DNA from: Terribacillus halophilus
Lineage (GTDB): Bacteria; Bacillota; Bacilli; Bacillales; Amphibacillaceae
Assembly: GCF_900162685.1 (NCBI RefSeq)
Contig: NZ_LT727827.1
Location: 661,971 to 725,970 of the forward strand
Direction of reading: 5' to 3'
DNA length: 64,000 nt
A program made the translations under genes and the position numbers. The notes below the pieces were generated by a model that searched no databases, was not told the DNA's origin, and saw only the letters and a list, made by a program, of their open reading frames with translations. Below are positions 18,467 to 46,161 of the stretch, piece by piece; the stretch's first letter is position 1; each line of letters opens with the position of its first letter.

Positions 18467-18492
18467 ATATTTAAGAGCTTTGTCTATAAAAT

Positions 18493-19392
18493 TATATCCC
18501 TGCCAAAAAGTCGGTACCCAACCCCAAATCTCCCCAATCCCTTGTCTCCCAAGGCTTCCGCCCTCTTATCTCCCACTTTCTCTTCCATCCATTATGTTAT
18601 TAAGTACTTCCCCAAAACACCTGATTTTCCTCCCTTTTTTCCGTTCTGGGTTGTATCGAATTTTCGGACAATGTTATTAAGTTGGTATCGATAATGGAAT
18701 GAGGAGATAGGAGAAAAGATTGAAATATAACGTTTTTGGGATCGCATAGAAACAAGAAAAACAAAAGAGGAAATAAGGCTCGAATATAGGATTAAACCAC
18801 AGAGAAGCCCACCATTGAGCTATTTCGAGCTTATAAGGGGCTAACTCATAGAAATTCTGCAGCTACACAATTAAGCGAAATATAACAGATTTGGGATGAT
18901 GTTATATTCCATGCTTTCACTCAATTTCTTATTGGTTTCACCAAAACAAAAAGGGGTATAAACCGCTTGGTTGAGCCATTTCTTATTTCTATGATCTTCT
19001 CTGAAAGGAATGATCCCTGGTACAAATTTGAGTTAAATGTAACAATTTTGGGACATGATGGAGAGAAAAAATAAGGAAAAGAAGAGATAATCCTACGGAT
19101 TCCTAAGGACAACAAAAGCAAAAAGAAACCCGGAAAGCTACTGAAATCGTATAAGAAAGGCATAATACACAGAAATATAACGGATTTGGGATGAGACAGA
19201 CGGAAGGAAGAAAAAAAGACTGGACCCATATTGGATCCAGCCTGGATTTTGATTGTTTTTATTGAATATGGATTGAGTACATAACGTCTGCCTGCTCTTT
19301 TTTCTTCTCTCTTCCTTCCGCTTCGGATACCAACTATTTAACAGCAGATACCGACTTTTTAGCGTGGGGAAGAAGAATTTAGCAGGGAGATA
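18493..19392. mobile_element. 900-bp non-coding repeat, copy 2
   Basis: It is identical over 900 bp, as far as I can read, to 56498-57397, in the same orientation and exactly 38005 bp away. The ends are TATCCCTGCC and GCAGGGAGATA. Each end has inward-facing sites: AAAAAGTCGGTACC and AGTTGGTATCGA on the left, AAAAAGTCGGTATC and ATAGTTGGTATCC on the right. The interior contains four copies of a unit like AAATATAACRGATTTGGGAT and no convincing gene. I interpret it as a non-autonomous mobile element. No clear target duplication is seen. Confidence 0.7.
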
Positions 19393-19467
19393 TATTAGAA
19401 AAAGGAATACGGAGATAAGATGACTAATTGTACCCTAAGGCTTATTGAATTCACAAGTTTCTTACAT

Positions 19468-20142
19468 TCATTGTAATTCTAGACCATCTTTTAACAATTT
19501 CCCTAGGTTTATTGATATTATTTCCTCCTCAGCTGATTCTTTAAACATAAGCAAGATTTCAAACTTACATATGACTTGTTCTTTTAGAGGTTCTATTAAG
19601 CGAGAATCTTTTAAAAGCTCCTTGAGTCTATCTCTGGTAATATTTATCGCCAAGAAAACACCTTTTTGATATTCATATTTGTTTATAAACTGATCAATCT
19701 TCAATATATCCTTTTTCATATCTTTAATGGTAAGACGGGGGTTAGCTTTGACTTCGATAATTAAACCATTATTCATCTGATTAGGTTCATGTACTAAGAA
19801 GTCCGGATAATAAACTTTATCAATGCTTTTCACTTCGCAATATGCTTCAATTTCACTACCTATCGGTCCTTTGCGGGGTTCACCCTGTAAGATCCACTCT
19901 TCCGTTAGCTCATTTTGTTTTTGTTCCAAGATTTTGCGGAATTGATGATAAAGCTCATAACAGAAGACTCGCTCTTGATGCCTACTCAAATATGGTATTA
20001 ACTCATTCCTGTTATCCTGAGATTTTATTTTATTGTCATGATAATTAAGCATAGATTCAATCCACGCCTTATTTCCATAATACACGCATTCAACATTTTT
20101 AATTGCTTTCCGAAGAAAATCTATATATTTACGAATATCCAA
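19468..20142 (-). CDS. PD-(D/E)XK nuclease-like protein
   Basis: This 224-residue protein has the motif YYPDFLVHEP, then LIIEVKANP about 12 residues on, i.e. the D and ExK of the PD-(D/E)XK nuclease fold (about residues 115-135). No other domain is visible. It starts with TTG at 20142, preceded by AAAGGAG. It lies downstream of the RloC-like ATPase gene in the same direction, with a 440-bp gap, so an operon is uncertain. A defence nuclease role is inference. Confidence 0.6.
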   Translation of the reverse strand: MDIRKYIDFLRKAIKNVECVYYGNKAWIESMLNYHDNKIKSQDNRNELIPYLSRHQERVFCYELYHQFRKILEQKQNELTEEWILQGEPRKGPIGSEIEAYCEVKSIDKVYYPDFLVHEPNQMNNGLIIEVKANPRLTIKDMKKDILKIDQFINKYEYQKGVFLAINITRDRLKELLKDSRLIEPLKEQVICKFEILLMFKESAEEEIISINLGKLLKDGLELQ

Positions 20143-20583
20143 GTATCATCACTCCTTTATCATATAATTTCAAAGTTATTAATAATACAGATTAAGAAAT
20201 CTTTTTTTAAAGTAAACCGCCCATCAAAACAGTAAGCAGAGCTTCAAAAATAATGCAGAAAATTATCATTTACACAGTTTCACTTTGAGTAATAATTTCA
20301 TTAGTAACTGCACTGCAAAACACCTCATTCCAGTAATTAATAGTAAGAAGGACTTTATGACCTTTTCATTCAACTTGATTTACTCTGTAAACCTTTAAAG
20401 GTTATAAATTTCTTTCTAAAAGGCTTGTCAGTGTCTACCAAGAAAAACTCAAGGTTTTTCCATCCCATGCACTAATAGAAATATATATTACCTCTTCTCT
20501 GAAATCCTCTTGAGCGACGATTTACTTTCAATCCTCTTAAACCTTCCACTTAATATATATCGGATAATCCATACCATACTTAT
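20143..20583. other. Non-coding gap
   Basis: AT-rich DNA between two leftward genes. Several AAAAC-containing words occur on the plus strand (for instance ATCAAAACAGTAAGC near 20225), but no array I would call a transposon end. No gene is seen. Confidence 0.3.
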
Positions 20584-23148
20584 TTATTTGTACTGCTCAT
20601 ATAAGTGATGGATATAACTCATATCCTCATTGAAAGCCTCTTTAGTTGCCCGATTATGTTGAGTTTCCGTAGGCTGACTGTGACCCGCCATCCAACGGCA
20701 CGCTTTGTCAAATAGTTCATTAACTGGGGTTAATTCCTCTACAAACTCACTTTTAATTGAATTGACCTTTGTAAACATAATATTTGGTTCATATCGGCGT
20801 ATAACCGATTTAAAGAAGCCTTCTTCCACGATTAATTCACACCAAGTTCTAATATCTGCATAAGCCTTCTTTAGTGCTTCCTCTAAGGTATCGCCAAAAC
20901 ATACTTTAGAATTAATGGTTTGTTCCTGTACCTTTAATTTGCTCATTATTTCCTTCAAGTTTTCTAACCTTCCATTAAAAGTCTCTGAAACATATCCTTT
21001 ATTCAGCTTGTCAATTTCATCTACCTTAAAGAACTTATTGTTTTCATCATTTTTCTTCTTTGGACTGGCATTGTACAGATAATAATAAAACATAATATTG
21101 TGTGTAAAAACTACAACCTGTCTATCTGATGATAGCTCACAAATTAAGTTTGCAATAATTTCTGATCGTTTATAATCCAATGATGTTACAGGATCATCAA
21201 ATAGAACTGTATTAAAATCTTTGCGCATAGTTAAATCAGTTGCGAATTCTGCCATCGCTACAGCTTTCTGTTCACCTTCACTCATAATTTGAGATACCTT
21301 GTACTCCTCTGAGCTAACAAACTTTTTTCTTAAAGTATTCCCTTTTTTAGGAACAATCCTTAGATTAACATCTGTCACTTTGAGTTCATTAGCAAAACGT
21401 TCAAATGTTTCAAAATACTCATCTTGAACAATTTCTTGAAAGGCAGCAGACTGTTTTTGGGTTAAAGCATGAGTGGAAAACTTGCCTTTCGCTTTACTGT
21501 ATTCATTAATATCCTTATCAATATCAAACCATCTTACAAAAGACTCCAGTGATGAATGAAGTTTTTCATTCTTTTTCAGTGTTTCTCTTGCAGCCTTACG
21601 CAAAGCTATAATTTCACCTGCTTCTGCACTTGATTTTTTTAAGTTTCCTATCCTTACGTCCAATACATCTATTTCCTGATCAATTTCTTCAATAACATCC
21701 GTTAAATCCAGTATTATCTCTTTAGGAATACTATGTTTAGAGTTGAGAAGGGAGTTAAATAATTCTCTATTGCGGTTTACAAGTTGAATAGCCGATTTAA
21801 TTTTCCCTAAAAACTTTTCACTTTCAAACAAGGCGACCTCTTCTTCAGATAAATTAATCCTTATATTATCTGTATCTTGTTTATTAATTTCCTTTTCAAG
21901 TGAACCCAATAACCCATCGTTGCTTTTAGTAATATGTTTAAAATTATTTTCAATTATATTCACACTTGTAGAATGAAGGGACTGGCTACAGAAAATACAT
22001 GCCTCGCCTTCATGAACATGATCCTGACTAATGGATTCATAATACTTCTTGCCCTTCTTCACGAACTCAAACCATTCATTGTTTACAACTTCAAGAAAAG
22101 ACACGTTTTGCCGGAAAGTTTCATTGTACTCTTGCTCTTCTTGTATCTTTTTCTCGTAATCTTTAATTAACTCATTAACCTTTTCTATATTATCTCTACT
22201 TAGTACAGTTGCAAACTTCTTCAGGGAAGTTTTAATTGATTTAAGTTTTTTCTGTTGAGCAGTTAGTATAGTAATTTTATCTTCGGGATTAACAGAATCT
22301 AACTCTTTAATTTGAGTCTCAATCTCTTCCAAAACCTCATCATATGAATCACTACGTGGATAGTTGATATTAAGATACTCTTGTAAACCATCTGAATCTT
22401 TAACTTCTTCTTTAATTCTAACGATCTCTTCTCGTATGTAGTCAAAAGAAGAATCACAGAATATCCTTTCTTGCTTCTCTTTTTCTGCCCCGATAGTAGC
22501 TGAAATTTCTTTGCGTAGAGAATCTAGCAACTCAGAAACCATCTGGAACTTCTCAAATCCCTTTGGTAGTATGCTAAATGTAAGATCACTATTAATTAAT
22601 GGAGAAACAGACTCACTATCAAAAACATTTATCTTACATAATTCAGCATGTGCTTTGTTTAAATCTACAAGATCATCTTTTGATTTTTCATCCAATAGAT
22701 ACTTAATTTCAACTGTTTGAGGTATATTGTCTTCTGCCGAATCTTCTTGGTAAACATTTGGTAGTATGGCAAGGTCTTTGTCTGAAGTAAAATAGTGATC
22801 AGCTAACTTACGAAACATACGAACATATGATGACTTCCCTGAACCATTTTCGCCATAAAATACATTGAGATTTTTTCCTAAAGAAAATTTAGCATCACCC
22901 GATATAGCATTAACATTTTTGGGAGACTTTATTTCACTTATAATTAGTTTCTTTCTTTCCAAAATCTCACTACTCGTACTAGCTTCGCCATCATGATCAA
23001 CTGCTTCTTTTGTTTTCATTAGGTGCAACACTTCGACCAACAGTTGCGAGGGATTAATTTCACTATTCCTTTTTACTTCATTAACAACGTGAACCTTCCA
23101 GGCTTCTTTACCTGCCCATTCAGTTAAAAAATCAACTGCTATCTTCAC
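20584..23148 (-). CDS. RloC/PrrC-like AAA_13 ATPase with zinc hook and Rx4H motif
   Basis: This 854-residue SMC/Rad50-like ATPase has Walker A GENGSGKSS (Lys105) and long coiled coils flanking a zinc-hook CIFC (Cys384, Cys387). The ABC signature is MSEGEQKAVA (about 625) and Walker B is VLFDDPVTSLD (about 650). The C-terminal tail carries RWMAGH (R818, H823), an Rx4-6H motif of HEPN-type RNases. This plan matches the RloC branch of anticodon nucleases, which cut tRNA on phage infection or DNA damage. The catalytic assignment is inference. The GTG at 23148, six bases after AGGAGG, is better placed than an ATG 12 codons upstream. Downstream is a PD-(D/E)XK protein. Confidence 0.75.
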   Translation of the reverse strand: MKIAVDFLTEWAGKEAWKVHVVNEVKRNSEINPSQLLVEVLHLMKTKEAVDHDGEASTSSEILERKKLIISEIKSPKNVNAISGDAKFSLGKNLNVFYGENGSGKSSYVRMFRKLADHYFTSDKDLAILPNVYQEDSAEDNIPQTVEIKYLLDEKSKDDLVDLNKAHAELCKINVFDSESVSPLINSDLTFSILPKGFEKFQMVSELLDSLRKEISATIGAEKEKQERIFCDSSFDYIREEIVRIKEEVKDSDGLQEYLNINYPRSDSYDEVLEEIETQIKELDSVNPEDKITILTAQQKKLKSIKTSLKKFATVLSRDNIEKVNELIKDYEKKIQEEQEYNETFRQNVSFLEVVNNEWFEFVKKGKKYYESISQDHVHEGEACIFCSQSLHSTSVNIIENNFKHITKSNDGLLGSLEKEINKQDTDNIRINLSEEEVALFESEKFLGKIKSAIQLVNRNRELFNSLLNSKHSIPKEIILDLTDVIEEIDQEIDVLDVRIGNLKKSSAEAGEIIALRKAARETLKKNEKLHSSLESFVRWFDIDKDINEYSKAKGKFSTHALTQKQSAAFQEIVQDEYFETFERFANELKVTDVNLRIVPKKGNTLRKKFVSSEEYKVSQIMSEGEQKAVAMAEFATDLTMRKDFNTVLFDDPVTSLDYKRSEIIANLICELSSDRQVVVFTHNIMFYYYLYNASPKKKNDENNKFFKVDEIDKLNKGYVSETFNGRLENLKEIMSKLKVQEQTINSKVCFGDTLEEALKKAYADIRTWCELIVEEGFFKSVIRRYEPNIMFTKVNSIKSEFVEELTPVNELFDKACRWMAGHSQPTETQHNRATKEAFNEDMSYIHHLYEQYK

Positions 23149-23244
23149 TGTTCTCCTCCTCATTTGTCTAATTTCTTTAACCACTTATGTAAAAATTTGT
23201 TGTATAAAGATCATCTTATCACACAAAACACTTAACAATAATCT

Positions 23245-23291
23245 ATAAAAGAAAAAGCTCCTTAATATTCTAATCAAGGGGCTTTTTCTAT
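23245..23291. terminator. Terminator downstream of tnsD2
   Basis: GAAAAAGC with CCTT pairs with AAGG and GGCTTTTTC, making a strong stem flanked by A- and T-rich runs. It lies between the tnsD2 stop and the upstream region of the RloC-like gene and could work in both directions. Confidence 0.6.
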
Positions 23292-23303
23292 GTTATAAGA
23301 TAA

Positions 23304-25151
23304 TTAAAATATATGAACCTTCTTTATCTGATCTAACTCTTTAAGAAATTTCTTTTTTATACTTGCCCTTCTCAATACCTTCCACGACTTTACTACTTCA
23401 CCCGCTTTACTCATGTCTTGGATAACATGCTCTACCCTACGTAGACGAAATTCTTGTTCAGATTCCCAAACCTCATTAATAAATGCTTTAGTTTTAGGCA
23501 TCTTATCCAAATGTTGCTCTAATAACGCTCTTTTACCTATTGCATCCGCAATGCCTTTAACTGATATCCTCTTTGGTTTTTCATTCCGGTTTCTAGGTTC
23601 CCATGTTGCCTTCTTAACCCTATCTAATATTTCCTGATCTCGTTTATCCCAATCTACTCGATTATTTATGCTATTTGCTCTTCGTAATTTAGGTGAATTA
23701 TTATCCAACCATTCTTTATCATTCCTATATAAATAAGCATATGTTGATGGTTTTTTGTATCTCAATTCTGTCTTTGATAAATTTGGATATTCTTGTTGCA
23801 ATTGCAACCATTTATGGCGATTATGCTGCACTGAATCAGCATTATTCATTTTATTAGGTGATTTCTCAATTTTAGTTCTACCTACTTCAATATTTGCATA
23901 TTTAATAACCGTATTAGCATCAACGTGTAATCTACGAGCTATTTCCCGATAACTTAATTTCTCTTCAAGCAATACACTAAGCTCCTTTTTCCAAAGGAAA
24001 CCAAAATTCATTATCTTTGTATATCTAAAACGATCTACTTCATTCTGCTGCTGACCTTTTCTGGTATAAATAAAACCACAGTGTTTACAAGAAAACTTAC
24101 CAATAGGCTGTTTCGTTCTATCACAGCTTCTAATCGAGACTTCCTGTATAACATCTTTCTTGTAACTCGGACATACTACGTTTAAGCAGGGCCACTTGGG
24201 TTTTCCAAATGGCTCAACCACTAATAAAGTTTCTTGGAAAACATCATTAACAGATAAACCAAGAAAGTTAAGCATTAAAAAATGGTAATAGGGATGAAAT
24301 GATTTCCGGTGTTTTCTTGTTATTGATGTTAACCATAATTCTGTTGATTTCACTCCAACATTGATGTTTTGAAGAAATTCATCTAAATATTTTTCCAGAA
24401 AAGCACTGAGTAATCTCCTTTGATAAACACGACCATTTAACGTAGCATACCCTGCTTCAATCAAATGTTTACGGTAGAAGTTCGTTAAATAGGAAAACGA
24501 TTTACACCTAAATTCCCACCTTAACAACGACTCTGCTTGTGAAATAAAATGTTTATATTGCTTCAATACATTGTTATCCACCAAACTTACTTTCGTAAGA
24601 TCGCAGTTGTTTGAAGTAGGTAATATAAAACTATGCTTATTTGAATTAATGATAGCAACATCGCTATCTTCCAACCAAATACCATGTTTCAAACATACCA
24701 ATTTCCCTGGAAGCTGATGCACACGATGCCAATATAGCTCGCCAAATTTATGAAGATCTTCTCTAAAACAGGCTGAGCAATATTTGAAATGTTTGTTCTG
24801 TGGTATTGAACTCGCCATAATGCCTGCTTGCATATAAATCCCTTTTCCATCATCACTTAACATAGAATCGTAAATGGATTGAGCCTTTTCTTTTGGTAGG
24901 AACACTGTATAGAATGGATACATTGTATGTTTCTTTATAAGTACCTGTTCATTCAATGTCGTATTTTTAGGTAAGTGCTTTACAAGAGCGCCAATTCCTG
25001 ATGGCAACATTACCGAAGCACTTATGGTTCTCTTTCCAAATAAATCTTCCAATGTATGTTTCCAGAAGACATTTCCAGATCGAATGTGATACCGAGCCAC
25101 AATACTATATAAAAGTTCATCAGGATACGGGGTGGGGAATTGTATGATCAT
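23304..25151 (-). CDS. tnsD: TnsD-type TniQ target-site selector, set 2
   Basis: This 615-residue paralogue of the protein at 5534 opens with FPTPYPDELLYSIVARYH. Its first zinc site is CSACF with CLKHG, the second CLNVVC with CKHCGF, and an HTH-like block, REIARRLHVDANTVIKYA, lies near 390. The length and zinc sites are those of TnsD, so it too should direct insertion next to glmS or another fixed site. Its start overlaps the tnsC2 stop as ATGA, showing coupling. All key Cys residues are present. Confidence 0.9.
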   Translation of the reverse strand: MIIQFPTPYPDELLYSIVARYHIRSGNVFWKHTLEDLFGKRTISASVMLPSGIGALVKHLPKNTTLNEQVLIKKHTMYPFYTVFLPKEKAQSIYDSMLSDDGKGIYMQAGIMASSIPQNKHFKYCSACFREDLHKFGELYWHRVHQLPGKLVCLKHGIWLEDSDVAIINSNKHSFILPTSNNCDLTKVSLVDNNVLKQYKHFISQAESLLRWEFRCKSFSYLTNFYRKHLIEAGYATLNGRVYQRRLLSAFLEKYLDEFLQNINVGVKSTELWLTSITRKHRKSFHPYYHFLMLNFLGLSVNDVFQETLLVVEPFGKPKWPCLNVVCPSYKKDVIQEVSIRSCDRTKQPIGKFSCKHCGFIYTRKGQQQNEVDRFRYTKIMNFGFLWKKELSVLLEEKLSYREIARRLHVDANTVIKYANIEVGRTKIEKSPNKMNNADSVQHNRHKWLQLQQEYPNLSKTELRYKKPSTYAYLYRNDKEWLDNNSPKLRRANSINNRVDWDKRDQEILDRVKKATWEPRNRNEKPKRISVKGIADAIGKRALLEQHLDKMPKTKAFINEVWESEQEFRLRRVEHVIQDMSKAGEVVKSWKVLRRASIKKKFLKELDQIKKVHIF

Positions 25152-26761
25152 AAAACATCACGCTCAGGGTAATCTTGATTAATTATTCCTGCGTCTAGTA
25201 ATGCTTGATAAGCAGTTACTTGCTGCTCTTTCCCATTTTTTATAATGACCCTTAGGTCGTTACTTATTACTCTATCCGTACCTATTTCATTATTGTTTAA
25301 TAGAAGAAAAGTATCTTTTACTACTTGTGATACATCCCCAATTTGATTGTTCTCTGAAACAACTTTTTCAACTGCCTTAATTGCAACATCCTTATTAAAA
25401 CCTAGCATCCCTAATCGGATAACTGCATCATCAATCAATCTCTCCTGCTCACCTTTCCGCTTCACTCCTTCTTTGAGCGACTCCATTACCTGTTTTTGAT
25501 CAAGATTAATTCGTTCTTGTTCAATAAGGTCTTCCATATCCGGCAGCATCAAATCGTCATATTTTGCTAGTTTGCTATAGTCTTTGCTTTTCAAAGTATT
25601 TAACATCGGTTGAACCATTTTTAATTCTTCTTGAGCAACTTGTTTAATTAATGCAGTTGTAATTTTCTCTCCACCACTGGTAATGGCTCGTAGCTGCACC
25701 ATCATAGTGAGCTTAATTGCGATATCAGCAATTCCTTGAGATTCATTATACAGAATTGAAGAAATTTCTTCTGTAAAAGGTACTTCCACTTTTGTCCACT
25801 GATATTTCCACATCCCCTGAACAAAAAGATCCCAAATTGCATCTTTTTCAAATCTCTCCCACATGATGTTCCCCATATTAGTGCTTCTTCTTGCTTGTCT
25901 GAACTGTGACTGTAAGACATCCTTTGCCTTTGGAGTTCCAACCATGACGAGAGGGATATTTATCGTATTGATTAACGCTGTAAAAAAGTTTAATATCTGT
26001 GCTGAGCTAGAGGATTTAATACCTTTTAAATGTTGTAACTCATCCAAGAATAGCATGCCAAGATTTATACTTTTAGCAATCTGAGCCATAATGGGCATTA
26101 GCTGACTTGTTGACAAATGGCTGTTTACGTATCTATTAAAATAGTTGGAGCCTAGTAGTAGATCTACTTGATACATAAAATCGTAAATAATGGTTTTTAC
26201 AGAACCATCAAAAGGGGTTTCAATTTTTAAATAGGTTACTTGGTAATGATTCAATGCCTGCCCTTTATACGACACATGAGAAATGACCTGTGGTATGGTT
26301 TGCAAAATCCGCTGTAATGTACGTGTTTTTCCAACACCAGACACCCCTAAAATACTCAGTGTTTGTCCTGTCTGGATAATAGAATGATCAAAGGATTTAT
26401 TCTTTATATTATTCCAGTTATCCACAAAAGTTTGTGCATAGTTAGCATTTATCGGATTACGATAGGTATATCCTGTCCTAATCAACCTAGATAAAGCTGA
26501 CTCAATTCTAAGATGGATCGGTATAGCTTGAAAATAATGTAGCAACCTAGAAATAAGATGTACCCTCTGATGATCATTCAAATATCTTTCTTCTTTGTTA
26601 TATGGAGGATATATACTTAGACGGTCAATGACTTCCTCCTGAGTATAGATTGGAGGCAAAGCCTCTATAAGAGGATTTCCTTGGTATTCCAATATGTCTT
26701 GTTCCTTATAATCTGCAACTTGGGCCTGGGTTCCATTATGTAATTCAATTATCCTCGTCAT
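25148..26761 (-). CDS. tnsC: TnsC AAA+ regulator, set 2 (full length)
   Basis: This 537-residue ATPase, counted from the ATG at 26761 (GGAAG upstream; an in-frame ATG at 26785 is less likely), has Walker A GVSGVGKTR and Walker B MLFLDELQHL. It bridges TnsD to TnsAB. It contains the C-terminal tail (NDLRVIIKNGKEQQVTAYQA) that is cut off in TnsC1, so this set has an intact regulator. The start overlaps tnsB2 by 17 bp and the end overlaps tnsD2 by 4 bp. Confidence 0.92.
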   Translation of the reverse strand: MTRIIELHNGTQAQVADYKEQDILEYQGNPLIEALPPIYTQEEVIDRLSIYPPYNKEERYLNDHQRVHLISRLLHYFQAIPIHLRIESALSRLIRTGYTYRNPINANYAQTFVDNWNNIKNKSFDHSIIQTGQTLSILGVSGVGKTRTLQRILQTIPQVISHVSYKGQALNHYQVTYLKIETPFDGSVKTIIYDFMYQVDLLLGSNYFNRYVNSHLSTSQLMPIMAQIAKSINLGMLFLDELQHLKGIKSSSSAQILNFFTALINTINIPLVMVGTPKAKDVLQSQFRQARRSTNMGNIMWERFEKDAIWDLFVQGMWKYQWTKVEVPFTEEISSILYNESQGIADIAIKLTMMVQLRAITSGGEKITTALIKQVAQEELKMVQPMLNTLKSKDYSKLAKYDDLMLPDMEDLIEQERINLDQKQVMESLKEGVKRKGEQERLIDDAVIRLGMLGFNKDVAIKAVEKVVSENNQIGDVSQVVKDTFLLLNNNEIGTDRVISNDLRVIIKNGKEQQVTAYQALLDAGIINQDYPERDVL

Positions 26762-28856
26762 AAAGCACTTCCTTCTGTTTTTCACGGAAAATATCCATCA
26801 CTTTCATCGTTCCAGCATTATCATTTACTTTGTTCAATTGCTTTCCATTATTATTTTGCTTTTCCCTTTTCAATATTTCTCTCTCGTTTTCTCGATTTTC
26901 TCTAATATTTCTTATATCTTTAGGTACCTCATTATTTGAAATTTGTTTGCTAGTCTCTTTTTTTGCTTTTCTAACAATCTCCTCTATCTCCTGAGCTAGC
27001 TGAACTTCTCCATTCAAACTGCTTTCCTCATAATCGGCCTCTTGTTGTTTTCTTTCTGTTTTCAAACTCTCAACTTCCTCCATCTTTGCACCACGATACA
27101 TTGCATATTGTTCTATTAGTGTACAGACCTCATAGTTATGTCTATCTATTCGAATGTAAATATTCGAGACATCTTGAGGATCAAAATGCACGCCCATATC
27201 CCAACTACCTTGTATACGAGCCTTAGAAAACCACCGTTCTTGCAATGCCATCGAACAAGTATAGAATAGACTTCCAAATTTAATTCCTTTCGGAGTAATT
27301 TTTGCACTACCTTTAGGTAAAACACTGCTTCTAATCGCATTTAAAGGTAGCGTCCTTAATAAGCCTGTTCCTTGATGTAACCCCCACTTAAATATTTCAA
27401 TTGGTATCGGTGGTATTTTTTCTTCTATCATACTTTGTGTTAAGGGGTAGCCTGCTATATAATTATGATTGTTATAATAAAGCACCGTTCGAACTAATAT
27501 TTGAACGTATTCGTTTAGGTTTAACACTGCCTTTTTTCTATAATCTTTCCCCCCACGCTTCATAAAATCTTTTTGAACCGCTCCAGGAAGGAAGGGAGAA
27601 ATGTGTCCTTGAAGAATATCAAAATATTTTTCACATACAGCTTTAAGTTCGGGTCTGTATGGCCCTAAATTTTGGATTTTAATATTTAAGTCCTCTGTGA
27701 TTTGTGTTAACTCATTGGAAATTAATTCACTACCCCGATCCGCCACAATAGTATGTGGAAGATAATGAATGGGCCAATCATTTTCATCAATATCCATATC
27801 GAGTGTCCGCTTACAAAATTCCTTTTTATCTTCAAAAGCATTTGCCAGAGCCAATCTCAATGATTCCTTCGACATATTTTGAATTCCTGCATATACAGAG
27901 ACAATACACCTGGAAAATATGTCTACAGTTAAATATATTACTGGGCGGCCAATCACTTTATTTCTATCAATGCTAGAAACTAAATATATATCACCTATAG
28001 TTGCATCAATGGCATATGTACCTATCCCCATAGAGTCTTCTGTAGCCGAACCAGTTATGGCACGATAGTTTTGCAAAAATTCTCTTCTTCCCTCTCTCTT
28101 ATGAATGGCATCTTCCGGTTTAAACCACTTCCTATACCAATAATAAAATTGGTCATATGAAATAATTGGTCTACCTATATCCAATACTTTATAGCCAGTT
28201 TTTTCATCCTTCTTAGAGAAATACTCTTTCACCATCTGCTGATAAGCGTGTTTTAATGAAGGCTTTGAACGTATAAAGTAGTATTTTTCCAGGCTAATTC
28301 TAATGATTTTCTTCCACTCATCAGTGATTGCTGCTCTCTGAATAGTCGAGGAATAGACAAATGGTCTTCCTGCTTTTTTAGTGTATTGACGTTCCTTCTC
28401 CTTTTGTTTCCCGCAATTATTAAAATCAGGTAAGAGTGCATTCTTTACCATTCCTCTAGCCCAATATCGTTTTAAATATTGTCGAACCGTCTTTGTACTT
28501 AGAGAAGAACTTTTACTAGCCGCATTAATTAACTCTGATCTCTGTTTCGGGATAAAAATATCAGGAATTAGATAGATTTGGTTTATTACTGTCCATGCTT
28601 TTGCACGTTTTTCAATTTCTATCTCAGATAATTCATCATCATTCACACTGATAGCCCATGGATCAGTTGCAACCTTTGTAATCTCCCCTGTGTTTAAGGA
28701 TGTTTCTATGTTGTGTATTTCCTTACTGTAAGGAAATGACGGTTCGTTAACATTAACAAGGAAACAAAGTTGATACTCCTTATCTATCCAGACTACCCTT
28801 TGAATGAATTTTGGATTTCCAGTGCTTTGTAACAAATCGTTAACTACCAACTGCAT
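26745..28856 (-). CDS. tnsB: TnsB DDE transposase, set 2
   Basis: Counted from the ATG at 28856 (GGAG nine bases upstream; longer starts exist up to 28883), the catalytic acids are D284 (YAIDATIGD), D373 (VADRGSE) and E409 (VCEKYFD). The spacing of 89 and 36 is one residue longer at each step than in Tn7 and TnsB1. The C-terminal 100 residues are highly charged and suit TnsC contact. It overlaps tnsA2 and tnsC2 by 17 bp each. It is clearly homologous to TnsB1 but diverged, so it should recognise different or drifted end sites. Confidence 0.92.
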   Translation of the reverse strand: MQLVVNDLLQSTGNPKFIQRVVWIDKEYQLCFLVNVNEPSFPYSKEIHNIETSLNTGEITKVATDPWAISVNDDELSEIEIEKRAKAWTVINQIYLIPDIFIPKQRSELINAASKSSSLSTKTVRQYLKRYWARGMVKNALLPDFNNCGKQKEKERQYTKKAGRPFVYSSTIQRAAITDEWKKIIRISLEKYYFIRSKPSLKHAYQQMVKEYFSKKDEKTGYKVLDIGRPIISYDQFYYWYRKWFKPEDAIHKREGRREFLQNYRAITGSATEDSMGIGTYAIDATIGDIYLVSSIDRNKVIGRPVIYLTVDIFSRCIVSVYAGIQNMSKESLRLALANAFEDKKEFCKRTLDMDIDENDWPIHYLPHTIVADRGSELISNELTQITEDLNIKIQNLGPYRPELKAVCEKYFDILQGHISPFLPGAVQKDFMKRGGKDYRKKAVLNLNEYVQILVRTVLYYNNHNYIAGYPLTQSMIEEKIPPIPIEIFKWGLHQGTGLLRTLPLNAIRSSVLPKGSAKITPKGIKFGSLFYTCSMALQERWFSKARIQGSWDMGVHFDPQDVSNIYIRIDRHNYEVCTLIEQYAMYRGAKMEEVESLKTERKQQEADYEESSLNGEVQLAQEIEEIVRKAKKETSKQISNNEVPKDIRNIRENRENEREILKREKQNNNGKQLNKVNDNAGTMKVMDIFREKQKEVLYDEDN

Positions 28857-29685
28857 AACTTTTATCTCCATCATTTTTACCATTTAATTGAACATGATAA
28901 TCATCTATTTTATTAGTCAAATTGATTTTCTTTCTTAAATCCATCCTTACTTCTTTATGGGCAACCAAATGTTTAAATAAAATTAGACCTAACCCTTCAT
29001 CCAGAATATATTCTTTTTCCAATCGAGAAAAAATGCTTTGAAAAGAATCCGCCTTACTCGACAAATACTGAAGCATATCACTTTTTAAGTGGGGCAAATT
29101 CAAAGTAAGCGATGGATAATCTTGAATATCATAAGAGTTCAATATCCACCCAATATTCCGTGCCAGCTGTTTATCAATCTCTTTTTCTGTTACAACTCCA
29201 AAATCGATCTCCTTCTTTTTAAAATACCTTCTTTGCAGTTCCAATCTCTGTAAGACTGCATTTTTCTCTAGCTCCTGTGATTGCTTAATTATCCTTGCTT
29301 CATCATAATACTCACCATTTTCCGTCTTCCTTGTAACCAAGAAAGAAACCGTGAAGATATGTGGTACCTGCGTCTTATTATCAAATAGTTTCTTTGTAAG
29401 CTCCTCGTCTACATGAATATTCATGTCGTGAAAATCTAATAAAGGGTATTGCTCCCTGATATCAATAACATTTTCGTCAAACTCCAATAAATAGAAATAA
29501 TATAACTGCAAATCGCTTAATAAGTGATGCACCCGTTGTGTCGTATGCCCAAGTGTACGAGTAGATCTTCCTTTAGATGCAATGTCTTGAACTTGCAGCC
29601 ATGGCTTATAGTCTTTTTTTATCCCTTGTCCTCGTTTCTCTTTCAGTAATCTACTGATAGTTGTTTCATTCCATTCTCTAATCAA
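28840..29685 (-). CDS. tnsA: TnsA-family protein, set 2, with catalytic Asp replaced by Ser
   Basis: Homologous to TnsA1 along its length, with the IDIREQYPL hallmark. E68 (LLEFDEN) and K134 (RIIKQS) of the endonuclease active site are kept. The residue aligned with Asp114 of TnsA1 and Tn7 is Ser114 (TVSFLV, codon TCT), a change that needs two base substitutions from either Asp codon. In Tn7, loss of Asp114 stops 5' cleavage, and TnsB alone then yields cointegrates. This gene is intact otherwise and heads the tnsABCD2 operon. Directly upstream is a serine resolvase that could resolve such products. Whether Ser114 abolishes activity is inference. Confidence 0.88.
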   Translation of the reverse strand: MIREWNETTISRLLKEKRGQGIKKDYKPWLQVQDIASKGRSTRTLGHTTQRVHHLLSDLQLYYFYLLEFDENVIDIREQYPLLDFHDMNIHVDEELTKKLFDNKTQVPHIFTVSFLVTRKTENGEYYDEARIIKQSQELEKNAVLQRLELQRRYFKKKEIDFGVVTEKEIDKQLARNIGWILNSYDIQDYPSLTLNLPHLKSDMLQYLSSKADSFQSIFSRLEKEYILDEGLGLILFKHLVAHKEVRMDLRKKINLTNKIDDYHVQLNGKNDGDKSYAVGS

Positions 29686-29721
29686 TTGTTATCCTCACCT
29701 TTCAAACAAGGGGAAATAAAA

Positions 29722-29796
29722 AACCACAATTCCTTTAGTCAGTGCCTGTAGTCAAAAAACCTTGTTTTTTTTACAGTATGACTAAGAAATTGTGGT
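29722..29796. repeat. Inverted repeat between tnsA2 and the resolvase gene
   Basis: ACCACAATTCCTTTAGTCA and TGACTAAGAAATTGTGGT form arms of 18-19 bp with one or two mismatches, separated by about 37 bp. The right arm overlaps the last codons of the resolvase gene. It may be a terminator for that gene, part of a resolution site, or the scar of an insertion. Confidence 0.5.
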
Positions 29797-30393
29797 AATT
29801 TCTTTATTATTCAATTTGAGATTGTCCATATTCTGGCTCCCTACTAGCTTTTTTACTTTACGATAAAAAGATGTTCTGCTAATATTCAACTTTTTGTATG
29901 TGGCAACTGCTGTTTGTTTACCTTCTTTCCAGCGTTTATACTCCTGCAAGAAATTATCATCTATTTGAATTGCTGGTCTTCCAAATGCCACACCTTTTTC
30001 TTTGGCAATTGTAATACCTTCTAGCTGGCGTTGCCTTATACTATCTCGTTCGAGTTCATATAAAGCTCCAAATATAGTACAAATGAATTTCCCTTGGGGT
30101 GTAGAAGTATCAATATTTTCCTTTAGACTAACAACCTCGATTCCTCTTTCAGTTAAATCATTTACTATCTCGAGAAAATCTTTTGTGTTACGAGCTAATC
30201 GTGAAATAGATTCAATAATTAAAATATCACCTTCACGGATAAAACTTAGCATTTCTTGTAACTGTGGACGATTCCTATCACTACCACTTAACTTATCAAG
30301 AAAAATTTTTTCTACATTTTGTTCCTCTAAAGCTTTTATCTGCCTTGATTCATTTTGTGTTTTATGGGAAATTCTGCAATATCCTATTTTTAT
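29782..30393 (-). CDS. Serine resolvase, non-ATG start
   Basis: A resolvase/invertase of 203 residues. IGYCRISHKTQNESRQIKAL at the N-terminus carries the catalytic serine, SRLARNTKDFLEIV is the Arg-rich active-site helix, and TAVATYKKLNISRTSFYRKV is the C-terminal HTH. The catalytic serine lies upstream of the first ATG (30252), so the real start must be further up. The only candidates in frame are ATA at 30393, eight bases after AGGAGG, or ATT at 30399. This is a rare start and suggests very low expression. Its place beside tnsA2 suggests cointegrate resolution for set 2; it could also be the resolvase of a former plasmid. Confidence 0.85.
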   Translation of the reverse strand: MKIGYCRISHKTQNESRQIKALEEQNVEKIFLDKLSGSDRNRPQLQEMLSFIREGDILIIESISRLARNTKDFLEIVNDLTERGIEVVSLKENIDTSTPQGKFICTIFGALYELERDSIRQRQLEGITIAKEKGVAFGRPAIQIDDNFLQEYKRWKEGKQTAVATYKKLNISRTSFYRKVKKLVGSQNMDNLKLNNKEITTIS

Positions 30394-30436
30394 TGTAATC
30401 CCCTCCTATAGAATGTACGTTTTATATTTCTATTAT

Positions 30437-30532
30437 AAAGGGTCCCAAAAGGTCTGTGAAGGTCTTGAAACATTCCAAAAGTAGGAACGCAAAGTTTTGG
30501 AACACTATTTTTCACATTCCCAAAAAGTATAC
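30437..30532. other. Candidate resolution (res) site
   Basis: About 45 bp upstream of the resolvase start lies a cluster of related words: TCCCAAAAGG, TTCCAAAA and TTTTGGAA forming a dyad at about 30474-30503, and TTCCCAAAAAG. Resolvases of this family normally act at dyad clusters next to their gene. The assignment rests on position and symmetry only. Confidence 0.4.
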
Positions 30533-30670
30533 TTTTGTGCTACTGATTTTTGGCTTCTTTACATCAACGATGAACTGTTGTTTATTTATATTTTATGAAC
30601 AAGCAGTCTTCGATGCATTTATGCTATCATCTAATCAAATATTTAAATTTGTATAGGAGGGTGAGATGAA

Positions 30671-31567
30671 ATGGACTTAAATATATTAATATCCACGATC
30701 GTAACAGCTACTTCAGCACTTGTAGCCATAATTGGTGGATTCTTAGTGAGTAGAGTTATTACTTTGGCTGGTGAAAAAAATGCAATAGTTCGCAGACTAC
30801 ATGAGCTAGACAACGATATGACTGCAAAAGAAAGGATATTAAGCGAGATAGAGATTGAATTACTAGAAGAGGATGTAGATGACTTTATATATGAACATTG
30901 CGAGGAATTAATTATAGAAAGAAAGCCTATTGAAGAGATTTTTGAAGGAGATAGTTCAATTAGTCTTTCTTTAGAGAAAGTAAGACCGTACATAGATGAG
31001 TTATTATCCATAGGCGATTATATAATAAAATTAATAGATGAATCTAAGACTTTTCCAGAAGAATTTGATGACTTCTTAAAAGAGAATAATATAAAGATTG
31101 ATAGAAGAAGAGATTGGCATAAGTTAGTTTATCAAACAATTTGGGCTGAGATACCTAAGACATCTGACAATCCATTTGGGATAAACTTCCCTCCCCCCAG
31201 TATAAATGCAGAACTTCTTTTTAGAAGCAACCCGGTTAACCAGCAAATATACAGAGACAAAATCAAGCAGTTAAATAATTTAGAGAATGAATTGACCATT
31301 CTGAAGTTACGAAGAGAAGAGCAAACGAAAATTTTAAATGATTACGGAAAACCAACTGGATTATGGGGAGGTCTTTGGGTTCTTATATATGCTTGCATAG
31401 TTGGCATAGCTTATCCAAGCACTCTCCTACCATATCCTCAAAACACGTACAATGATGGTATAACTAAGTGGTTCTTAATATCTTTATTTATTAGTCAGTT
31501 ACTTGCTTTATTCTTATATTTGGGAATATCTATGTCTAAATTAACTAAACAAGAAACATACAAATAA
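30671..31567 (+). CDS. Three-span membrane protein, unknown
   Basis: This 298-residue protein has one N-terminal hydrophobic segment (about 5-30), a 190-residue charged central region, and two C-terminal spans (WGGLWVLIYACIVGIAYP and FLISLFISQLLALFLYLGI). It has a strong ribosome site, AGGAGGGTG. I do not recognise the family. It is transcribed away from the resolvase. The architecture, with a large cytoplasmic loop and paired C-terminal helices, is common among uncharacterised defence-island membrane proteins, but no function can be assigned. Confidence 0.6.
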   Translation: MDLNILISTIVTATSALVAIIGGFLVSRVITLAGEKNAIVRRLHELDNDMTAKERILSEIEIELLEEDVDDFIYEHCEELIIERKPIEEIFEGDSSISLSLEKVRPYIDELLSIGDYIIKLIDESKTFPEEFDDFLKENNIKIDRRRDWHKLVYQTIWAEIPKTSDNPFGINFPPPSINAELLFRSNPVNQQIYRDKIKQLNNLENELTILKLRREEQTKILNDYGKPTGLWGGLWVLIYACIVGIAYPSTLLPYPQNTYNDGITKWFLISLFISQLLALFLYLGISMSKLTKQETYK

Positions 31568-31699
31568 CTCTAAGTTATGTTGAAAGATAGAAATTTTCAC
31601 AAACACAAGAATGCGGGCTCACTTAATTTCACTGCTAAATAATCAAACCAAAACTATATACATAACTTTTTGAAGCCCTATTGGATATCATTTCAATGA

Positions 31700-31735
31700 T
31701 ATTGCTCGTTTCACTCTTTTGTGGAACGAGCAATT
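31700..31735. terminator. Hairpin between convergent genes
   Basis: ATTGCTCGTT and AACGAGCAAT form a perfect 10-bp stem midway between genes ending at 31567 and 31804, in the right place for a bidirectional terminator. No T-run is strong. Confidence 0.5.
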
Positions 31736-31803
31736 GCGTAGTTAAGCTAGTCTCCTTCGCAAAGAATAATCAGCAAGAACTCCTATATACTCTATCAAAA
31801 GGC

Positions 31804-32871
31804 TTAACTTACTTTCTCACCACTAATTCTTTTCATGTTCGTTGAAAGTACATTTCTTATAGATATCCTAACTTCATCTATCTCTTTCAAAGACTTCCCA
31901 GGGATAATACCTTTACTTACCGAGGTTTCCAACGCACTTTCCAACCCTCTTAGTGCTTTCAAAGAATCATTAAAGAAACGAAATTTCTTTTTAATATGTA
32001 ATTGATGTGCTTCGGCAACGTTAGCCATACATGAAGTAGCGTGCTTTCTCATTTTGCTTACAAGGTCCTTTTCCTTCCAAAACTCTTTTCTTCTTGTAAC
32101 TTCATATATTCTTTCTACCAACAGCAAAGCATTCTTATATGCTCCAAAGTTTTTCACATTAGGAGTATATGGGTTTGGCAGATTTAATCCTTTACCCTCT
32201 TTTTCTTTAATATTGGATAAGGTCTTCGTTAGAATACGTACCACTTGATTAACCATGTTATCTAATTCCTCGAATTGGGTCTGGGTGATATACTTTTGGC
32301 CCAATGAGACCTGGATCCATGCAGAAGTTTCTTTTGCAGATCCTATTGCTATACTGTATTGGTTAAACTTTTCTCGTATATAGATTTGCTCCCCTATTTG
32401 TATTCTTCTTTTAATCGACTCTGCACTCCTCATAATTTGATTAACAATATGGTCAACCTCAAATGAAGGAAATTTCCTGCATAATTCTATGATTCGCTCT
32501 TCTAATTCCTTTGCCTTCTTGTAGCCAATAAATTGTTTTACATCTCTTACTTCAAGGGAATGCTGAGGGTTTTGTAGAGGGTTGGTTCTTTTTGTGGATT
32601 TTAATGGAGTACTTGCACGTTCATCAATTGAAGGAGGGATGTGGAATACGTCCTGGAGATTATCGTAAATTTGAACAGCTCTATATTTATGTAGGTAGTA
32701 GTTAATCACAATCTCTTCGGTCTCTGTTAAATCTTTTAAATCTTTAAGAACCCAAATTAATCCTTTCTCAGCTAGGTTTCTCAATTTTTCACCAATGTCA
32801 ATGATACTGTAGTTAGATAATTCTCTTTCATTTCGATACCAGTTTTGTATTTGTACTACTGTTTTATTCAA
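31804..32871 (-). CDS. Tandem four-helix-bundle protein (S23/IVP-like, two copies fused)
   Basis: This 355-residue protein has an N-terminal 115 residues of unknown type, then two successive domains of the 23S rRNA intervening-sequence protein fold. The first runs from about IGYKKAKELEERIIELCRKF, the second from about FGAYKNALLLVERIYEVTRR. Each shows the usual conserved helices, SxExI near the middle and an ALRGLESALE-type helix near the end. Such bundles occur in rRNA-inserted genes and as the Avd accessory protein of diversity-generating retroelements, where they form nucleic-acid-binding pentamers. No reverse transcriptase is present, so an Avd role is not supported. A fused pair is unusual. 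Confidence 0.65.
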   Translation of the reverse strand: MNKTVVQIQNWYRNERELSNYSIIDIGEKLRNLAEKGLIWVLKDLKDLTETEEIVINYYLHKYRAVQIYDNLQDVFHIPPSIDERASTPLKSTKRTNPLQNPQHSLEVRDVKQFIGYKKAKELEERIIELCRKFPSFEVDHIVNQIMRSAESIKRRIQIGEQIYIREKFNQYSIAIGSAKETSAWIQVSLGQKYITQTQFEELDNMVNQVVRILTKTLSNIKEKEGKGLNLPNPYTPNVKNFGAYKNALLLVERIYEVTRRKEFWKEKDLVSKMRKHATSCMANVAEAHQLHIKKKFRFFNDSLKALRGLESALETSVSKGIIPGKSLKEIDEVRISIRNVLSTNMKRISGEKVS

Positions 32872-33109
32872 TTTCTTTCGACTCCTTTTTTCTAATAAGT
32901 ATTGATTTTTTCCTTCTTTATAAGTCTATTCTACTACCTCGCTTCTCGAATAAATAGTTTAATAGGTTTGACCATGTTCTAGTATCACTTATGAAACTTA
33001 TGAAAATATCACACTTGCTCGAACCAAATAATATGATTTCTTCTTATATTTATGATTAAGGTACATAGTATAAATTGTTAAATCTATTAAATAAAAGGAA
33101 GTGGTTTAG
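32872..33109. promoter_or_regulatory. Upstream region of the parM-parR pair
   Basis: This AT-rich 238-bp gap lies between divergent genes and should carry the promoters of both. In actin-type segregation systems the centromere often lies upstream of parM. I see short repeats such as TTATGAAACTTATGAAA at about 32989-33005, but no clear iteron array. Confidence 0.35.
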
Positions 33110-34084
33110 ATGAAAGAAACTATAATGATTGCCATCGATTGTGGCAAATATCAGACCAAATCAATTGCCCGCTACAAAGGAAGTACCTTCAAGACCAATT
33201 TTCGTACTAAATTAATGTCAGTTTCTCGATTAGGGATGGAAATTCAACCCAAGTCCTACTTAGTGAAGTATAACGGGGGTGAATATTTAATAGGCGATAT
33301 GGTGAGTGAACAGTTCGCAGACTTTTCTCTAAACAAAGCCTCCCTCATCCACCAGATCTCCATTTACACTGCAATTTCACATATGCTGCAGAAAGCAAAC
33401 GCACCTTCTAATGTTGAGATTAGATTGGCTGTAAATGTTCCTATTCCTACGTACAAGGATTCTGTTCAAAAGGAAAATTTCAAGCAGATGGTAGAAAACC
33501 AAGGACGAACTGTACACTTGGTGGTTAATGAAAAAGCCTACTCATTCGGATTATCAAACGTAACCCTAGCATTTGAATGTATGGGTGAGATTTACGCCAA
33601 ACCAGAAGCGTACAAAAACAAGAACACAATTGTAATTGATTTAGGCGGACTAAATACAACTCTTTGTCAATTCAGTGGGATACAACCGCTCATTAATACC
33701 ATGATAGTCAGCGATTTAGGTGTTAATAGTGCCCTAAAGGGAAAGATAGGAAAGGTTATTAATGAACGTTATGGCCTTTCAGTTTCTTCCGATGATTTAG
33801 AACAAGTTCTTCGAAACGGATATTTTGCAAGTAGGGGAGAGATATTCGAAGACAGCAAAATATTTATTGAGGAACTAAAATATGAACATTTACAGCAGAT
33901 TATTCAATTTGCAAAGAGCCGAGGGTATACTTTCAATATGTCTGATATCCACTTTGTAGGTGGTGGAGCAATTATTCTTAGAAGGTATATCAAACAGGAA
34001 TTTCCTCATGCAGTCATTACTGATAACGCTCAGTTTAGCAATTGCCTGTCTTTCCTCAAAATCCTCGAGGTCAAATATGCCTAA
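33110..34084 (+). CDS. parM: ParM-like actin-family segregation ATPase
   Basis: This 324-residue actin-fold protein has phosphate-1 motif IAIDCGKYQTKS (residues 6-17), phosphate-2 motif TIVIDLGGLNTTL (about 178-190) and adenosine motif FVGGGAIIL (about 284-292). It belongs to the ParM/StbA/Alp group of plasmid segregation filaments. It is followed, with an 8-bp overlap, by a small DNA-binding protein, the usual ParR adaptor position. A strong AAGGAAGTGG ribosome site precedes the ATG. A segregation module in a chromosomal island suggests part of the cargo came from a plasmid. Confidence 0.8.
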   Translation: MKETIMIAIDCGKYQTKSIARYKGSTFKTNFRTKLMSVSRLGMEIQPKSYLVKYNGGEYLIGDMVSEQFADFSLNKASLIHQISIYTAISHMLQKANAPSNVEIRLAVNVPIPTYKDSVQKENFKQMVENQGRTVHLVVNEKAYSFGLSNVTLAFECMGEIYAKPEAYKNKNTIVIDLGGLNTTLCQFSGIQPLINTMIVSDLGVNSALKGKIGKVINERYGLSVSSDDLEQVLRNGYFASRGEIFEDSKIFIEELKYEHLQQIIQFAKSRGYTFNMSDIHFVGGGAIILRRYIKQEFPHAVITDNAQFSNCLSFLKILEVKYA

Positions 34085-34355
34085 TGCCAGGTATACCATT
34101 AGCATCCTCTCTAAAGACTCTGATTTAATCCATTATATTGAGAACAAAAGAAGGTCAATTGGATTAAGTGCATACATCCGGGAATTGATTCGTAAAGACA
34201 TGGAAAATCAAGATACCTCAGATTTAGAGCAAATATATGAATATGTAGCAAAGAGAATGAAAGAAGATGGATTTCATATAGATGATACAAGTGCTCACAA
34301 AGCAGCCGAATTTATTGATGAGCAAGTTAAGGATGTTGTCATGGACCTCTTCTAA
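34077..34355 (+). CDS. parR: ParR-like DNA-binding adaptor
   Basis: This 92-residue protein starts at the ATG at 34077, inside the end of parM, with CGAGG upstream. Its N-terminus, NARYTISILSKDSDLIHYIE followed by RRSIGLSAYIRELIRKDM, has the strand-helix-helix pattern of ribbon-helix-helix proteins. The acidic C-terminal tail (FIDEQVKDVVMDLF) would contact ParM filaments. It presumably binds the centromere and represses the pair. Confidence 0.75.
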   Translation: MPNARYTISILSKDSDLIHYIENKRRSIGLSAYIRELIRKDMENQDTSDLEQIYEYVAKRMKEDGFHIDDTSAHKAAEFIDEQVKDVVMDLF

Positions 34356-34374
34356 GGAATCTTATACAAACTAA

Positions 34375-34399
34375 AAAGGACCCGTATGGTCCTTTTTGT
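34375..34399. terminator. Bidirectional terminator between parR and hsdR
   Basis: AAAAGGAC and GTCCTTTT flank a six-base loop, with A-rich and T-rich runs on either side. It serves the rightward parMR and the leftward hsdMSR operons, which converge here. Confidence 0.75.
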
Positions 34400-34408
34400 T
34401 GTACTGAT

Positions 34409-37399: not shown

Positions 37400-37418
37400 A
37401 TTTCATCCCCCCACTCAT

Positions 37419-42567: not shown

Positions 42568-42724
42568 AACATATAAATCCTCTCTTGTTTTTTCATATCA
42601 TACTCTGAAGAAACAAGCCGTATATATTTTTTTACGTCTTAGCAGGTTCTAGTAATACTTTTTTATAAAGATTGATGGTGTACGAACGTTCTTGTAAAAC
42701 AACTAATATCCATATTACTTCGCT

Positions 42725-42891: not shown

Positions 42892-42914
42892 GAAATAAGT
42901 CAATCTCAAGAATG

Positions 42915-46040: not shown

Positions 46041-46081
46041 CTTCATGTATAATACCTAAAAAATATTTTGTTATATACTTG

Positions 46082-46107: not shown

Positions 46108-46161
46108 ATTCAAATAAATAGAAAAGGCTGCGCACTTTGCGTCACAGCCTTTTTGGTGCAA

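Follow-up and report, generated by a model that had tools for sequence, protein, structure and literature searches.

Tn7-like elements with TnsA proteins lacking catalytic residues and a cointegrate architecture near attTn7

Here we describe a Tn7-like element of Terribacillus halophilus whose TnsA protein has lost its catalytic acids and which lies, within a long body of other genes, between two identical direct repeats with a target duplication outside them. The element was found in a stretch of 64,000 nt (assembly GCF_900162685.1, contig NZ_LT727827.1, positions 661,971-725,970, forward strand), hereafter called the window, which holds two Tn7-like gene sets; the element in question is set 2, and its proteins are named TnsA2, TnsB2 and so on. 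Based on the window and its relatives, we consider it probable that set 2 belongs to a clade in which TnsA has lost its nuclease and been kept as structure, and that the element is a plasmid-like circle that integrates replicatively at attTn7.

Set 2 is a tnsA-tnsB-tnsC-tnsD operon whose products carry the domains expected of a Tn7-like element. We aligned TnsA2 with the Tn7 TnsA structures 1F1Z and 1T0F (E ~7e-38), in which Glu63, Asp114, Lys132 and Glu149 form the active site. In this alignment Asp114 lies opposite Ser114 of TnsA2 and Lys132 opposite Lys134, and, counted on the same alignment, Glu63 lies opposite Gln60 and Glu149 opposite Gln151. Two of the three residues required for cut-and-paste (Glu63, Asp114 and Lys132) are thus replaced in TnsA2, whereas TnsA1 of set 1 keeps Asp at the 114 position. 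A first-pass annotation of the window, made from its letters alone, had pointed to E68, S114 and K134 in TnsA2, to S114 as standing opposite the catalytic Asp114 of Tn7 TnsA, and to Asp at the same place in TnsA1; all of this was borne out by the alignment. Its choice of E68 as the catalytic Glu was not, because E68 pairs with Glu71 and Gln60 with Glu63, so that the counterparts of Glu63, Asp114 and Glu149 are all replaced. A sequencing slip at codon 114 was rejected, as relatives have Ser there too. An AlphaFold model of TnsA2 (49 sequences) had a mean pLDDT of 89.9, and its top Foldseek matches were 1T0F, 1F1Z and the TnsABCD transpososome 9BW1, indicating that the TnsA fold has been kept. 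TnsB2 keeps its acids, three of which align with the acid triad of Tn7 TnsB (7PIK).

The borders of the element are formed by two copies of a 900-bp mini-element with the termini TATCTCCCTG and TATATCCCTG. When the insertion and one AAAAT were removed by script, the outer flanks fused into one frame. This frame shows weak similarity to the gene immediately preceding tnsA in two relatives with an Asp114-bearing TnsA, G077 (E 2.7e-5) and G344 (9e-5). Given this fused frame and the AAAAT duplication, the 38,905 bp from 18493 to 57397 most plausibly represent a single insertion that interrupted a resident element's gene. The resident is taken to be the element of set 1, its putative ends being the four repeats beside glmS and the three inverted repeats at 573-689, with set 1 between them. 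Since the two 900-bp copies are identical, either the event was recent or the copies have been homogenised. Direct repeats with a target duplication outside them are the architecture of a cointegrate.

To place TnsA2 among its relatives, we use the word losers for elements whose TnsA lacks Asp114 and keepers for those whose TnsA has it, so that the groups are defined by that residue. In a survey of the taxonomic order (the order survey), 397 of its genomes were searched, giving 70 matching places in 61 genomes; 58 places were fetched, two lay in the window and ten were left out (E 3.6e-41 or weaker), and the set was supplemented with two places from G022. A further scan, over named genomes, yielded 198 stretches, of which the best 80 were used. 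The TnsA set held 143 frames, 126 of them distinct; 120 had a tnsB, and the 115 whose TnsB had at least 500 aa entered a tree. Asp114 was absent from 58 of the distinct proteins, being replaced by Thr (26), Asn (18) or Ser (14), and present in 68. Glu63 was absent from 42 of the 58 losers (Gln in 41, Gly in one), while all 67 keepers having that column showed Glu; Glu149 was absent from 22 of the 58 losers versus none of the 68 keepers. In the order survey, 19 TnsA rows lacked Asp114 and the remaining rows having the column kept it. In the named-genome scan, members of Robertmurraya, Virgibacillus, Cytobacillus, Neobacillus, Alicyclobacillus, Clostridium, Thermoanaerobacter and others lacked Asp114, and all nine cyanobacterial loci among the best 80 of 198 stretches had it. 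In the TnsB tree, built by a quick method that gave long-branch warnings, 53 losers formed one branch with a support of 99, and the Asp114 state changed once. TnsA has evolved under purifying selection (window versus L110, dN 0.096 and dS 0.56; versus L109, dN 0.088 and dS 0.83). The window falls in a subgroup with Gln60, Ser114 and Gln151, which has ten other rows (L049-L051 and L109-L115), seven of them distinct.

The same layout was found in relatives. Direct repeats of 342-3191 bp, 99.5-100% identical, occurred in 15 of the 17 losers whose stretch reached glmS, with one copy on the glmS side and the other past the tns genes. Their lengths were 900 bp in G000, 555 in G424, 567 in G097, 475 in G279, 549 in G787, 570 in G798, 501 in G793, 2222 in G789 (99.8%), 3191 in G790 (99.9%), 342 in G791 (99.7%) and 502 in G797 (99.8%). 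The repeat was split by masked bases in G133 (404 and 443 bp) and G788 (1027 and 1021 bp), had exact parts of 684 and 435 bp in G022, and measured 569 bp with tandem copies in G786. None of seven keepers had a repeat of at least 300 bp and at least 95% identity, G105 having one of 181 bp at 91%; the keeper stretches were 43-60 kb each and may not span both element ends. An exact 5-bp duplication was seen in seven of 14 scored losers (G000, G424, G279, G022, G798, G788 and G790; G786 was left out of the scoring), and a body between identical direct copies with the duplication outside was found in the window, G424, G279, G022, G798, G788 and G790. The inner flank of the glmS-side copy starts with TAG in all 14, so that the module occupies a conserved position within the body. 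In all eight losers having both genes on one contig, glmS lies upstream of tnsA in the same orientation. The repeat starts about 25 bp past the glmS stop in G424, G097 and G133 and about 236 bp past it in the window and G279. The distance from glmS to tnsA is 24-46 kb in six recombinase-bearing elements and 3-4 kb in two without a recombinase.

Several further observations concern these modules. In G786 (L235-L237), an array of tandem 782-bp units, each made of the module and 213 bp of glmS-side sequence, lies beyond the tns genes. The same locus has two glmS matches 2.3 kb apart; either the site was hit more than once, or the pattern stems from the assembly. At L121, L123, L128 and L058, tnsA and glmS are separated by some 2-4 kb with few open reading frames. 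In G788, G789, G790 and G022 this interval is largely the repeated module, so the modules there are long and apparently non-coding. The inner flanks of the module in the body are sometimes an inverted repeat, e.g., GTTTTTGTAACTA / TAGTTACAAAAAC in G022, as if the module sat in a palindrome of a circle. A third copy of the window's 900-bp module, about 81% identical, stands alone to the left of the resident element (L208, -282..555 in window coordinates), and is possibly the scar of an earlier integrated circle. Inside the window's module, at 18711-19194, a motif like AAATATAAC-NNN-TTTGGGA recurs in four related copies spaced by 138-157 bp, which could be protein-binding sites. Half-sites of res type in the mini-element were rejected as too weak: the 900-bp repeat has two occurrences of TTTTGGRA, and the window as a whole has 20. 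Where attTn7 is occupied by an Asp114-bearing element, the Asp114-less element lies slightly inside that element's right end: at 57397 in the window and at 144961 in G279, in both cases about 236 bp from the glmS stop, and at the end of G172 C2 (L266), after a tnsA-like start. This may point to a second targeting rule.

A recombinase gene is often found beside tnsA in this clade. In the window, an open frame of the serine resolvase family containing its catalytic motifs YCRIS and SRLAR lies directly upstream of tnsA2. The block of about 130 bp upstream of it is conserved at the same place in L064, L098 and L119 and contains a dyad, TTCCAAAA-14-TTTTGGAA. The window and L064 have it in perfect form and L098 in an imperfect one, while in L119 it falls below threshold; the dyad cluster resembling res that the first-pass annotation described is present. 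In the tree set, from which eight of the 115 elements were set aside for short upstream sequence, 27 of 50 scorable losers and none of 57 keepers had a co-oriented recombinase in the 1.3 kb upstream of tnsA; the recombinase profiles were grown from examples beside losers, so that members of other families may have escaped notice beside keepers. In the order survey, a recombinase pointing toward tnsA was found within 1.2 kb upstream in 16 of 19 losers (six serine, ten tyrosine) and in none of 43 keeper rows over the same distance; L056, one of the three losers without it, has just 282 bases upstream. A search with PF00239 over 40 keeper-holding genomes is limited to the matches listed. When neighbours were checked against Pfam, PF00589 was found in all nine tyrosine recombinases tested, and the serine recombinase was confirmed in L059. 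The recombinase state (serine, tyrosine or none) has changed at least 11 times inside the loser clade: the window has a serine resolvase and its sister L110, with a TnsB 86% identical, a tyrosine recombinase. The idea that Asp114 loss is tied to serine resolvases only was therefore rejected, as the nearest relatives carry tyrosine recombinases.

The first-pass annotation had proposed looking for an adjacent resolvase beside other Ser114 homologues, and had named homologues lacking one as evidence against its proposal. Ser114 homologues without a serine resolvase do occur: the ten other rows of the window's subgroup have a tyrosine recombinase in the position of the resolvase. In four of 18 Ser114 rows (L130, L133, L144 and L164) the nearest 1.3 kb contain no co-oriented recombinase, which indicates that a recombinase is not obligatory. 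It had also proposed a copy-and-resolve lifestyle with a TnsA kept as a structural part. The copying half, with TnsA kept as structure, is well supported for the whole clade by the tree, the selection, the recombinases and the direct repeats. The resolving half stays hypothetical, since the repeats are seen unresolved and the res-like block of the window lies in the single-copy body, outside the repeats.

The body between the repeats looks plasmid-like, with a ParM-like gene and a possible replication gene in the window (Table 1). A ParM-like gene occurred in the cargo arm of seven of 11 elements, and ParM-like matches were found in 16 fetched loci, all of them losers'. D5/DUF5906 or DnaB-type proteins were found in four arms (G133, G023, G160 and G041 C33), and helicases in others. 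The window also carries defence-like cargo at 34409-40630, 20584-23184 and 2696-4756, including look-alikes of type I restriction-modification genes (judged by eye), an AAA_13 protein and a SIR2-like protein.

Table 1. Positions of set 2, its borders and neighbouring features in the window (nt;., no strand)
Feature	Position	Strand	Remarks
Resident element, left end	556..695	+	Three inverted TnsB-like repeats (573-689)
Interrupted resident-element gene, 3' part	18074..18492	-	Resident taken as set 1 element
Left 5-bp target duplication, AAAAT	18488..18492	+	Outside the repeat pair
Direct repeat copy 1, 900-bp mini-element	18493..19392	.	TnsB-like sites inverted at its two ends
Body between repeats, 37,105 bp	19393..56497	.	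Set 2, resolvase, ParM-like actin, cargo; putative circular donor
tnsD2, TniQ/TnsD target selector	23304..25151	-	PF15978 (E 4e-113), PF06527
tnsC2, AAA ATPase	25148..26785	-	AAA_22, TniB
tnsB2, DDE transposase	26745..28883	-	Three acids opposite the acid triad of Tn7 TnsB 7PIK
tnsA2	28840..29685	-	PF08722 and PF08721; Q60, S114, Q151 replace Glu63, Asp114, Glu149; K134 = Lys132
Small serine resolvase frame, 207 codons	29785..30405	-	PF00239 (E 1.4e-40); no standard start before catalytic Ser
Res-like block 5' of resolvase	30430..30560	-	Conserved in L064, L098, L119
Protein with 23S-rRNA-IVP domains	31804..32871	-	Relatives found repeatedly 5' of the recombinase among clade members
ParM/Alp-type actin-like protein	33110..34084	+	PF17989; homologues in many Asp114-less elements
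Small protein beside actin gene	33960..34355	+	Homologues beside actin gene in several Asp114-less elements
Possible primase/replication protein	40966..42567	-	PriCT_1 below cut-off; winged helix HTH_24
Direct repeat copy 2	56498..57397	.	Identical to copy 1 over 900 bp
Right 5-bp target duplication, AAAAT	57398..57402	+	Outside the repeat pair
Interrupted gene, 5' part, and resident right end	57398..57607	-	Four TnsB-like repeats at 57524-57598
glmS, attTn7 landmark	57634..59436	-	glmS ribozyme at 59535-59705

We propose the following mechanism. The nuclease site of TnsA would have been lost once, and TnsA would have stayed on as a structural partner of TnsB and TnsC that no longer cuts. The element would be a plasmid-like circle holding one short mini-element, both ends of which would be recognised by TnsB. 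Both 3' ends of this mini-element would be joined by TnsABCD to attTn7, on the downstream side of glmS, or to neighbouring DNA. With a TnsA unable to cleave the 5' strands, the mini-element would be copied by replication and a cointegrate would result, in which the whole circle lies in the chromosome, bordered by a direct copy of the mini-element on each side and a 5-bp target duplication; in other words, with a non-cutting TnsA the donor body would come along into the chromosome. The recombinase that many members encode beside tnsA, serine or tyrosine and often swapped, would most likely keep the circle monomeric and/or excise it. We further suggest, tentatively, that these may be integrative elements of a separate kind: a replicating circle with a nuclease-dead Tn7 transpososome as its integrase, for which the cointegrate formed by the two-ended module would itself be the integration, the swappable recombinase would serve excision or resolution, and a solo module would be the scar that excision leaves.

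Several observations weigh against this mechanism, the first of which concern the repeats. The cointegrate picture can also be obtained from other events: a single crossover into a resident solo mini-element, or composite movement, gives the same repeats and the same duplication. Among the losers that reach glmS, G295 has no such repeat and G290 just 2.8 kb at 92% identity; no repeats were found in five draft contigs that stop short of glmS (G023, G041 C32, G041 C33, G160 and G397); and seven of the 14 scored losers show no matching duplication (G097, G133, G787, G789, G791, G793 and G797). In the crossover case, a solo mini-element would first sit at the site and a circle would then recombine into it, by homologous or site-specific recombination, so that the repeats would be a Campbell product and set 2 would move only mini-elements. 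Such a two-step origin predicts the same structure and outer duplication, the recombinase could perform its second step, and the diverged solo copy beside the island of the window fits it. We nevertheless regard it as unlikely, since a matching solo copy (99.5-100% identical) would be required beforehand in each of 15 elements, since the target in the window is a gene within another transposon, and since the available solo copy is just 81% alike. In the composite case, the mini-elements would act like flanking insertion sequences, and the unit of mini-element, body and mini-element would move by cut-and-paste with an active TnsA. The 5-bp duplication at the outer ends in seven of 14 losers, together with the retained Lys132 and TnsA fold, agrees with such a transposon. 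However, loss or erosion of the catalytic-site acids is confined to this clade, each of 15 elements carries two copies that are 99.5-100% identical to one another, and the layout was seen in none of the seven keepers, so that we consider a composite transposon improbable.

A second group of observations concerns TnsA and the missing recombinases. Lys132 is invariant in all 58 losers, as in the keepers, and acids are commoner in losers at two other positions of TnsA2, namely position 70 (40 of 58 losers versus one of 67 keepers) and position 84 (Asp or Glu in 56 of 58 versus 24 of 67). A rebuilt, active site is therefore possible, as is the alternative acid that the first-pass annotation had itself named as evidence against its proposal. 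In addition, 23 of the 50 scorable losers have no adjacent recombinase, and the Fisher p of 7e-12 overstates the independence of the data because the loss has one origin. Twenty of these 23 belong to a single subclade, made up of Clostridia-type and Asn-type elements; in six of its members (L132, L135, L136, L143, L147 and L164) the opposite strand encodes a tyrosine recombinase 4.3-5.0 kb upstream. Taken together, the acids, the invariant lysine and the recombinase-less losers would suit TnsA2-type proteins that are active nucleases with a rebuilt metal site, in which positions 70 and/or 84 stand in for Glu63 and Asp114, and recombinases that serve as cargo or for plasmid stability. Given that direct repeats are what missing 5' cuts predict, we judge this very improbable.

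The resolvase frame of the window has no ATG, GTG or TTG before the catalytic serine, and intact relatives exist (L064), so that its expression is uncertain; the first-pass annotation was right about an open frame directly upstream of tnsA2 with a resolvase domain, and wrong to call the gene complete. This would be in keeping with a set 2 in decay, where the genes of TnsA2 and the resolvase are degenerating and the whole set has ceased to function. Such decay is hardly credible in view of the purifying selection between genera on tnsA, tnsB and tnsC, the presence of Asp114-less TnsA in many species, and the identical 900-bp copies, which indicate a recent event or homogenisation.

Finally, no free form of the element was found in PLSDB, where all matches were below 60% identity and the two checked at residue 114 both had Asp, and no relative was found among collections of phages and viral contigs. 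A candidate free plasmid in G172 was rejected because its contig C3 ends inside the repeat, and two plasmid TnsAs, H1 and H4, were rejected as Asp114-less because both keep Asp.

Several known systems come close to set 2. Set 2 shares with canonical tnsABCD elements the gene order, TnsD, the glmS landmark, the 5-bp duplication, inverted TnsB-like sites and the TnsA fold (1F1Z/1T0F). Unlike Tn7, it has a TnsA without Glu63, Asp114 and Glu149, a recombinase beside tnsA, two direct repeats each with both ends and, in the six recombinase-bearing elements, a tnsA far from glmS (24-46 kb). Active-site mutants of Tn7 TnsA, reportedly studied by May and Craig in 1996, resemble set 2 in that TnsA is present, catalysis is lost and cointegrates are predicted; the mutants were made in the laboratory, whereas the clade of set 2 occurs in nature and its members often carry a recombinase. 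The translocatable units and pseudo-compound transposons of IS26 are circles integrated as cointegrates, with direct copies at their borders. IS26 is not known to have TnsABCD, attTn7 targeting or a resolvase; on our reading, set 2 would share the integrated circle with these units. Point mutations of the TnsA active site abolish cut-and-paste and leave replicative transposition (Benler 2021, PMC8649781), and elements without TnsA form cointegrates (2024 review, PMC11406308). According to the same review, Tn5053/Tn402 and type V-K CASTs (CRISPR-associated transposons) lack a TnsA cut and form cointegrates, as set 2 is predicted to do, and Tn5053 also has a recombinase, but they have no tnsA, whereas the set 2 clade keeps TnsA under purifying selection. 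In Benler 2021 (PMC8649781), Tn7-like clades 2 and 3 have a tnsR, a serine or tyrosine resolvase tied to a replicative pathway; the pathway is predicted from the absence of tnsA together with the resolvase, and such a role of the resolvase is described as unsupported where tnsA is present. Unlike those clades as described there, set 2 has a tnsA, one without catalytic residues. An inactivated tyrosine recombinase, TnsF, is described in another report as serving as a target selector (Faure 2023, PMC10293859), and two Tn7 sets in one island of B. cereus have been reported in a paper in which the word 'repeat' does not occur (PMC2359905). Among the matches listed, no PMC title or abstract start mentioned a natural catalytically dead TnsA or such repeats.

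If our interpretation is true, the clade is a natural counterpart of the laboratory TnsA mutants that switched Tn7 from cut-and-paste to replicative transposition, and evolution can retain TnsA as a scaffold after the loss of catalysis. This makes testable the roles of TnsA besides cutting, and the way a targeted transposon handles cointegrates when 5' cleavage is missing. Cointegrates are also a practical problem for CAST tools without TnsA. Our reading predicts that many attTn7 islands of Bacillota would be integrated circles, not simple transposons, which would alter the annotation of their borders, cargo and mobility.

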